Shown: piece after piece, positions 2,619 through 4,165 of the stretch | Layout of the letters: each line of letters starts with the position of its first letter | How positions within the stretch are numbered: position 1 is the stretch's first letter | Assembly (NCBI GenBank): GCA_030654015.1 | Contig: JAURYI010000103.1 | Span: 1 to 64,000 of the forward strand | Reading direction: 5' to 3' | DNA: 64,000 nucleotides | Origin: Methylococcales bacterium | Lineage (GTDB): Bacteria > Pseudomonadota > Gammaproteobacteria > Methylococcales > Methylomonadaceae | Made by a program: the position numbers and the translations under genes | The notes under the pieces: generated by a model | Told to the model about the DNA's origin: nothing | What the model saw: the letters and a program-made list of their open reading frames with translations, nothing else | Databases searched by the model: none

Positions 2619-4058
2619 TTACACAATCTTGGCAAGATAATCGGTTAATTGATAGACGTTAATGAATGTAATGTCAAACATTGCGGTTAAGCCTTTCGTT
2701 TTGGTGTCATTCATATCGGCAACTAAAAATAAAAAATAAGGCTTGTCGATAGCCAGTTGTTTGCGTAGCTTGCAATACTTATCAATAAACTGTCGATATT
2801 CGCCTGATTTGCATTCAATAAATAACGGTGTGTTATTAATTAAAAAGAATACATCAATTTCGTAACGTCCATTAATAGTATCTATCCGCATATTGCGCGT
2901 ACAGGAAAAATCCAGTTGCCGTGAATAACAATAATCGACAATTTTCATAAACGCATACCATTCTAACCATTCGCCATTAAAAAACTGTACAATACGAGTA
3001 GCAGATTGTAAATTCAAAGTAATTAAATTTTTTTGAGCATGATAAGAGTACCGTGCAACAAAGGAATAATCATACAATTCTTTACAAAACTTTTTTATTA
3101 TTTCACCGTCTTTATTATCATAATGAGATAATTCAATATAGGCTCTGTCTTTATTGGCTAATTGACGGTGTTTTATTTTATTACTGACTGTTTTTAATAC
3201 CGCATAATTATCGCCTAATGCGACCGCTATTTCATCAAAAAAACCTGTGGTATCCATTGCCTCGGCATTGACTTCAACGGTGATATATTTACGTTTAAAC
3301 CAATGAGTAATCGGCTCATATTGTGCTTTTAGAGTCAACGCATCGGTATCGTGAATATTAATAGTGTTGGCTAAAGTGGCTGTTTCTAGTGTCGATTTTG
3401 GTTTTAAAGATTTATTTTTCTTTAAAGAAGGTTGGAGTTTAGTATTTTTATGTGGATGAATATCAATGGTTTTTTGCGTATTATTTGCTGGCGTTATAGC
3501 AGCCAAAGGCATGGGTTCAGATTCAATAGCAACACCAAAATTCCCTGCTAATACTGCCAATCCCTTGGTATAGCCCTGTCCTATGGCTCTAAATTTCCAT
3601 GCGTTTTGATGGCGGTACAGTGTCGCCAAGATAATCGCGGCTTCTCTACTGGTGTCGGTTAATTGGTATCTGACAATCTCTTGTTTAGTGGCAAAATTAA
3701 ATACTTTGATATTGATATTGTTGACTAAAGAGAAATTGTGTTTTCGATGTTTGGCTTCATGAATAGATAAGACAAATGCAACGTGGCTAATATCAGGTGA
3801 CAGCTGTTTTAAACTGACTTTAAAACGGCGGTCTTTGAATAAAACGGCATTATCTGAGGAACGTGGTTGATTATAAAAAATAAAATCGCTATCAGCTTTT
3901 ACTTTATTGTGTTCTGTTAATAAAAAAGCACTGACATCAATATCTAGCGGCGGAGTCATTGTGTTTGTTTGCCATTCGGTGACAATGACGACATCACTGA
4001 GCAGCTGGTCTTGCGTAGCTAACGAAATATTTTCTCCTTTTTGTAGGCAATGCGTCAC
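2619..4058 (-). CDS. TerD-domain protein fused to a PD-(D/E)XK nuclease domain
   Basis: A 479-residue two-part protein. Residues 4-178 are a TerD domain: LQKGENISLA, PLDIDVSAFLL, ADSDFIFYNQ, SHVAFVLSIHEA and WKFRAIGQGYTKGLAVLAGNFGV. The Asp-rich loop usually found between the two halves is shortened to FKDRRFKV. A Lys/Thr-rich linker (about 180-250) leads to a second globular region. Residues 362-450 carry a nuclease-like core: GEWLEWY (E366), YEIDVFF (E400, D402) and FIECKSG (E415, K417), the ExD...ExK arrangement of the PD-(D/E)XK fold, similar in pattern to DUF1887/Card1-type nucleases. TerD proteins are calcium-binding stress proteins. A TerD sensor controlling a nuclease would suggest stress or phage response, which is inference. 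The gene is visibly A+T-richer than its neighbours and stands alone, without terB, terC or terZ. Confidence 0.75.
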   Translation of the reverse strand: MTHCLQKGENISLATQDQLLSDVVIVTEWQTNTMTPPLDIDVSAFLLTEHNKVKADSDFIFYNQPRSSDNAVLFKDRRFKVSLKQLSPDISHVAFVLSIHEAKHRKHNFSLVNNINIKVFNFATKQEIVRYQLTDTSREAAIILATLYRHQNAWKFRAIGQGYTKGLAVLAGNFGVAIESEPMPLAAITPANNTQKTIDIHPHKNTKLQPSLKKNKSLKPKSTLETATLANTINIHDTDALTLKAQYEPITHWFKRKYITVEVNAEAMDTTGFFDEIAVALGDNYAVLKTVSNKIKHRQLANKDRAYIELSHYDNKDGEIIKKFCKELYDYSFVARYSYHAQKNLITLNLQSATRIVQFFNGEWLEWYAFMKIVDYCYSRQLDFSCTRNMRIDTINGRYEIDVFFLINNTPLFIECKSGEYRQFIDKYCKLRKQLAIDKPYFLFLVADMNDTKTKGLTAMFDITFINVYQLTDYLAKIV

Positions 4059-4165
4059 TATAAATTCCTTGGGTGTGTGCCTAAAATATGCACCATGATA
4101 TTAATCAGTATTTGAGTTGGTTGGTATGGTATCAATAATTGTGAATATTGACACCGCACGGTCAG

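Follow-up and report, generated by a model that had tools for sequence, protein, structure and literature searches.

The window, which is the whole 64,000-nucleotide stretch of Methylococcales DNA analysed here, carries on its minus strand a gene that joins an N-terminal TerD domain, of the tellurite/phage-stress kind, to a Card1-type nuclease module. The gene lies between glgP and cysM, presumably so named, as both names come from our recognition of the neighbouring proteins. The reading frame proposed in the initial annotation is real. It opens with GTG behind a Shine-Dalgarno-like AAGGA, and its orthologues start at the same residue. Statements made below on the whole genome are based on family searches. 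The features of the locus are as follows.

2619..4058, minus strand: TerD / Card1-type nuclease fusion gene, GTG start, 479 aa, with orthologues of the same architecture
4066..4070, minus strand: Shine-Dalgarno-like AAGGA, 7 nt upstream of the GTG
4166-4178/4184-4196, no strand assigned: 13-bp perfect inverted repeat in the spacer between glgP and the fusion gene, one copy in the genome
3537..4058, minus strand: TerD domain, residues 1-174 (Pfam PF02342, E 2.1e-52), without the acidic GDNxTGxGDGDDE loop
3375..3515, minus strand: disordered basic linker, residues 182-228 (pLDDT < 50; K+R 8, D+E 2 in 47 aa)
3000..3362, minus strand: accessory subdomain of the Can2/VC1899-type nuclease region, residues 233-353 (AlphaFold2 pLDDT ~96 over the module; Foldseek; motif in PMC7969007)
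2622..2999, minus strand: PD-(D/E)XK nuclease core, residues 354-479 (PF09002, AlphaFold2, Foldseek)
2961..2963, minus strand: E366 in GEWLEWY, invariant in 59/59
2853..2861, minus strand: E400-I-D402, equivalent to Can2 Glu276/Asp278 by HMM alignment, invariant in 59/59
2808..2816, minus strand: E415-C-K417, the (D/E)XK motif, aligned with the Can2 ECK and invariant in 59/59

With 35.3% G+C against 43.7% across the remaining window, the gene is indeed A+T-rich, and this composition together with the inverted repeat had been taken to suit transfer. All fusion orthologues, however, have 30-35% G+C within flanks of 41-44%, and as low G+C is common to all of them, recent transfer judged from base composition was rejected. 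The 13-bp repeat exists but fails as a sign of transfer, being single in the genome and absent from the orthologous spacer of the relative G001; it is probably the 3' hairpin of glgP and not a mobile end. The fusion stands between glgP and cysM in G001 as well and adjoins cysM in G007. Thus a site common to relatives, equally A+T-rich orthologues and a single-copy hairpin leave transfer unsupported. Defence genes often have their home on plasmids, phages and viral contigs. No relative was found on those searched, and mobile-element cargo was likewise rejected, also in view of the single-copy repeat.

In the near relative G002 the site is empty (L164:7116-7201), with glgP and cysM 86 bp apart and flanks of ~95% identical DNA. 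Neither edge of the spacer in the window is related to these 86 bp, which are therefore not a clean excision scar. G001 and G007 share the site although each is a more distant relative of the window's genome than G002; it is therefore likelier that G002 lost or replaced the gene than that the gene arrived recently in the window's genome. No ter or defence gene adjoins the window copy. The gene had been described as alone, which holds for the locus but not for the genome, where a Ter operon and another fusion of TerD to a nuclease are found elsewhere. Separately, the orthologue on the G007 contig (Crenothrix sp. D3) has a Septu pair ~3.7 kb upstream (L021:3398-5193, plus strand; PtuA E 5e-91, PtuB E 4e-47).

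By both sequence and fold the N-terminus of the window protein is TerD. The PF02342 match reaches 177.8 bits against a cut-off of 25.3 and spans profile positions 1-187 of 187, and the TerD half of the full-length model matches the TerD structures 3ibz (E 4e-17) and 2kxt (E 8e-16) in Foldseek. Solved structures match each of the two halves, and the proposed fusion of TerD to a PD-(D/E)XK nuclease was confirmed. The acidic GDNxTGxGDGDDE loop, reportedly the TerD calcium site in the work behind 2kxt, marks the canonical TerD and not the entire PF02342 family; the title of 2kxt concerns calcium binding. In the alignment this loop was absent from all eight TerD-Card1 fusions, and it is present as GDN(R/K)TG(A/V)G(D/E)GDDE in the operon TerDs of the window's genome. 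Judged from these sequences, calcium control of the fusion protein is doubtful because the loop is missing from every fused TerD, and the calcium dependence initially suggested is left without support. A different TerD protein in G001 (L156:785-1936, minus strand) continues into several hydrophobic segments and is perhaps membrane-bound.

The C-terminal module was modelled with AlphaFold2 over residues 233-479 (247 aa, 59 homologues), with pLDDT 96.0 and pTM 0.92. In Foldseek the model aligned over 243-265 columns with VC1899 (E 2.6e-11), Cdn1 (5.5e-10) and Can2 (1e-8), and Card1 was also found (E 2.3e-7), so the nuclease fold and the DUF1887/Card1-type resemblance that had been suspected were both recovered. 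The match to PF09002 (Card1_endonuc, residues 357-423) is marginal, with E 3.5e-6 and 27.1 bits against a gathering cut-off of 26.4; several relatives fall under that cut-off, though each of the 59 module sequences gives a match at E <= 1. PADLOC profiles of CARF-PD-(D/E)XK proteins also match the window protein, the best with E 2.6e-13 over 356-473. E366, E400-x-D402 and E415-x-K417, read earlier as a metal site, stand at the positions given for them and are invariant across the 59 aligned homologues from three phyla, none of which lacks the acidic or lysine residues. In Can2 a flexible loop connects the CARF domain (3-151) with the nuclease domain (166-366), whose active site includes Glu276 and Asp278; beside the nuclease core lies an accessory motif, shared with VC1899, of two antiparallel strands flanked by four helices (PMC7969007). 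As the Foldseek match runs over the whole length, the catalytic residues are invariant and E400/D402 align with Can2 E276/D278, the module is, on sequence and predicted structure, a Card1/Can2 nuclease that lacks the CARF sensor.

The middle of the protein (256-350) had been left without a fold and offered as a ligand sensor. Structural alignments to Can2 and VC1899 cover this region at high confidence (pLDDT >90), and it (~233-353) is therefore the accessory subdomain, winged-helix-like in its order of elements, so that the reading as a ligand sensor was rejected; the structure model also ruled out an IF-1/OB fold, to which there had been weak matches. The full-length model keeps both halves and leaves residues 182-228 disordered, where the linker is basic as had been described, and at pTM 0.55 it does not fix how the two halves are oriented towards each other.

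Proteins of the same architecture occur in seven genomes within the genus and family, the window's included; when one genome per species was scanned, 80 loci carrying a related module came up. Apart from the TerD fusions (L031-L037), almost all of the close members of full length open with a zinc-ribbon-like motif (MAILRCNKCGHLREV...GKSVKCPxC) followed by a short charged, helix-like spacer; their hosts are Pseudomonadota, Thermodesulfobacteriota and Campylobacterota. True CARF-Card1 proteins were distant matches only (E about 1e-5). In a quick tree of the module, in which single placements are less certain, all eight TerD fusions fell into a single clade (SH-aLRT 99*) within the zinc-ribbon proteins; the wider set, of 26 rows, also reached 99*, and the CARF proteins lay outside on a very long branch. 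Because the fusions are one clade inside the zinc-ribbon family, the simplest history is a single swap in Methylococcales (methanotrophs), in which TerD replaced the zinc-ribbon-like N-terminal region. No recurrent partner gene was found across 62 loci beyond lineage synteny, zinc-ribbon relatives included, and no description of the zinc-ribbon-type Card1-like family was found in the literature searched.

Two further observations concern this family. Loci L038-L100 (e.g. L045:7758-8756, L042, L050, L055) make up a widespread CARF-less family of ~330 aa with the zinc-ribbon-like N-terminus, and many of its hosts are filamentous or flocculating (Thioploca, Halobeggiatoa, Electrothrix, Zoogloea). 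In Bacterium UASB270 a module protein (L041:7872-8750, plus strand) has a short Cys-rich N-terminus (MICPFCQQPKGNPRCGFC) of a different motif, perhaps a further swap of the front end.

Elsewhere in the window's genome, on another contig (G000:C118), lies a Ter operon (L029:3227-9215, minus strand) that encodes two TerDs, TerF (TerD-vWA), a further TerD-family protein, ATPgrasp_Ter, PRTase_2-TRSP and a HAD-like hydrolase. The PRTase and HAD enzymes of Ter are proposed to make a nucleoside-like signal sensed by TerB/TerD, and TerD has been proposed as a receptor for nucleotide derivatives (PMC7824862; PMC7159879); no TerD ligand was found reported in the literature searched. In the relatives set a strong ATPgrasp_Ter match was present in all seven fusion genomes but also in many without the fusion. 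As many members of the family and the whole genus have the operon, its association with the fusion is weak, compatible with a linked function rather than telling. The same genome holds a second TerD-nuclease fusion, TerD-HSDR_N (G000:C139, L028:8956-10242, minus strand; also L151 and L150), which is found in G007 and G015 too. Here a loop-less TerD is joined to HSDR_N_2 with D...EAK residues, and this TerD groups, though with moderate support (88/78), with those found in the Card1 fusions. A profile search of the window's genome gave no Cmr2 match, and the weak, sub-threshold Csm1 match is an HDOD-GAF-GGDEF protein. A role as type III CRISPR effector was rejected since no Cas10 was found in this genome, and the protein has no CARF domain.

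Our best guess is that the TerD-nuclease works as a one-protein sensor-effector. In its specific form, a Ter-linked, signal-gated effector nuclease with TerD in place of CARF, we hold the reading to be about as probable as all others together. TerD would be the regulatory front end, joined by the flexible linker to a metal-dependent accessory-plus-PD-(D/E)XK module, which probably functions as a homodimer, as in Can2. Ter-type stress, phage or a toxic oxyanion would be the trigger, and the signal bound by TerD would most likely be a nucleoside-like compound made by the Ter PRTase/ATP-grasp pathway; alternatively, TerD may join a Ter complex at the membrane. In Can2, binding of cA4 at the sensor reportedly rearranges the nuclease pair. 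In Cdn1, gating involves a rotation of the nuclease domain by about 75 degrees and the rebuilding of a metal site (PMC12825302). By analogy, activation of the nuclease dimer would lead it to nick DNA or cut RNA, probably without strong sequence specificity, and phage replication may thereby be slowed or the cell arrested. The empty site in G002 is as expected for a dispensable defence gene, and the Septu pair near the G007 orthologue, the Ter operon and TerD-HSDR_N of the window's genome and the hydrophobic C-terminal helix of three orthologues also speak for this reading. Against it stand the absence of ter and defence genes beside the window copy, the weak association with the Ter operon, the lack of a recurrent partner among the zinc-ribbon relatives and the lack of copies on the plasmids, phages and viral contigs searched.

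Another reading, which we consider possible though not probable, takes TerD as a tether and not a switch, bringing a constitutively weak nuclease to an inner-membrane Ter assembly where it would cut incoming DNA. TelA and TerF have been proposed to form sub-membrane structures that exclude phage or xenobiotics (PMC7824862), the long, disordered linker makes direct allostery harder, and in three of the eight fusions (L035, L036, L037) the C-terminal tail has one strongly hydrophobic segment (Kyte-Doolittle 2.3-2.4), by its composition probably a membrane-spanning helix that serves as an anchor. However, five of the eight fusions, the window protein among them, have no such helix, a free nuclease would be a danger to its cell, and those relatives that have been characterised, Can1, Can2, Card1 and Cdn1, are gated by ligands.

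It is rather unlikely that the protein is instead a DNA-maintenance enzyme, which would repair or process DNA with damage or mismatches and be brought to damaged DNA by TerD or the zinc ribbon. Among DNA-bound homologues the Can2 nuclease domain is structurally closest to EndoMS (PMC7969007), and the zinc-ribbon relatives lie on chromosomes, have no conserved partner and were not seen on the mobile elements searched; but neither the patchy distribution, with matches at E <= 0.001 in 14 of the 369 genomes of the class, nor the absence from the closest relative is what a housekeeping repair gene would show. That the gene is a degenerate or inactive relic of two unrelated domains, as its loss or replacement in G002 and the lost acidic loop of TerD might hint, is very improbable in view of the invariant catalytic residues, a frame that is intact in eight of eight fusions and a module identity of 83-86% between species.

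TerD occupies the place of CARF in a well-studied ligand-gated nuclease, and under the signal-gated reading nuclease activity becomes a read-out of whatever TerD senses, which bears on the role of TerD and on the purpose of the Ter-pathway metabolite. The homologues also suggest a Card1-like module wired to at least three different front ends. A broader and rather doubtful extension is a Cas10-independent second-messenger defence, in which the Ter PRTase/ATP-grasp pathway would supply a nucleoside-like signal and loop-less TerDs would act, CARF-like, as receptors on exchangeable nucleases of the Card1 and HsdR_N types. Both domains are known; as far as we searched, there is no earlier description of the two combined, of the parent family with the zinc ribbon or of loop-less TerD reused on two types of nuclease. 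No paper was found that treats TerD and DUF1887 together, and an earlier mention is possible in the key Ter survey (Anantharaman 2012, doi 10.1039/c2mb25239b).

Among the known systems close to the fusion are Can2, Card1, Cdn1 and VC1899 (DUF1887), with which it shares the accessory subdomain and nuclease core over ~245 residues, the catalytic E-x-D and E-x-K, and an N-terminal regulatory domain on a flexible linker, although sequence identity in the structural alignments is only ~12-18% and TerD stands where those proteins have CARF. The zinc-ribbon-type proteins of Methylomonas, Zoogloea, Desulfobulbus, Electrothrix, Thioploca and others, its direct parent family in the module tree, match the whole 247-aa module at 38-52% identity and have the zinc-ribbon-like region and charged helix-like spacer where the fusion has TerD. 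Canonical ter-operon TerD (2kxt, 3ibz) has the same beta-sandwich at 35% identity in structural alignment, but stands alone and carries the acidic loop that the fusion lacks. The TerD-HSDR_N fusion has the same loop-less N-terminal TerD on another PD-(D/E)XK type, the HsdR-N nuclease of type I restriction, whereas that of the window fusion is of the Card1 type.
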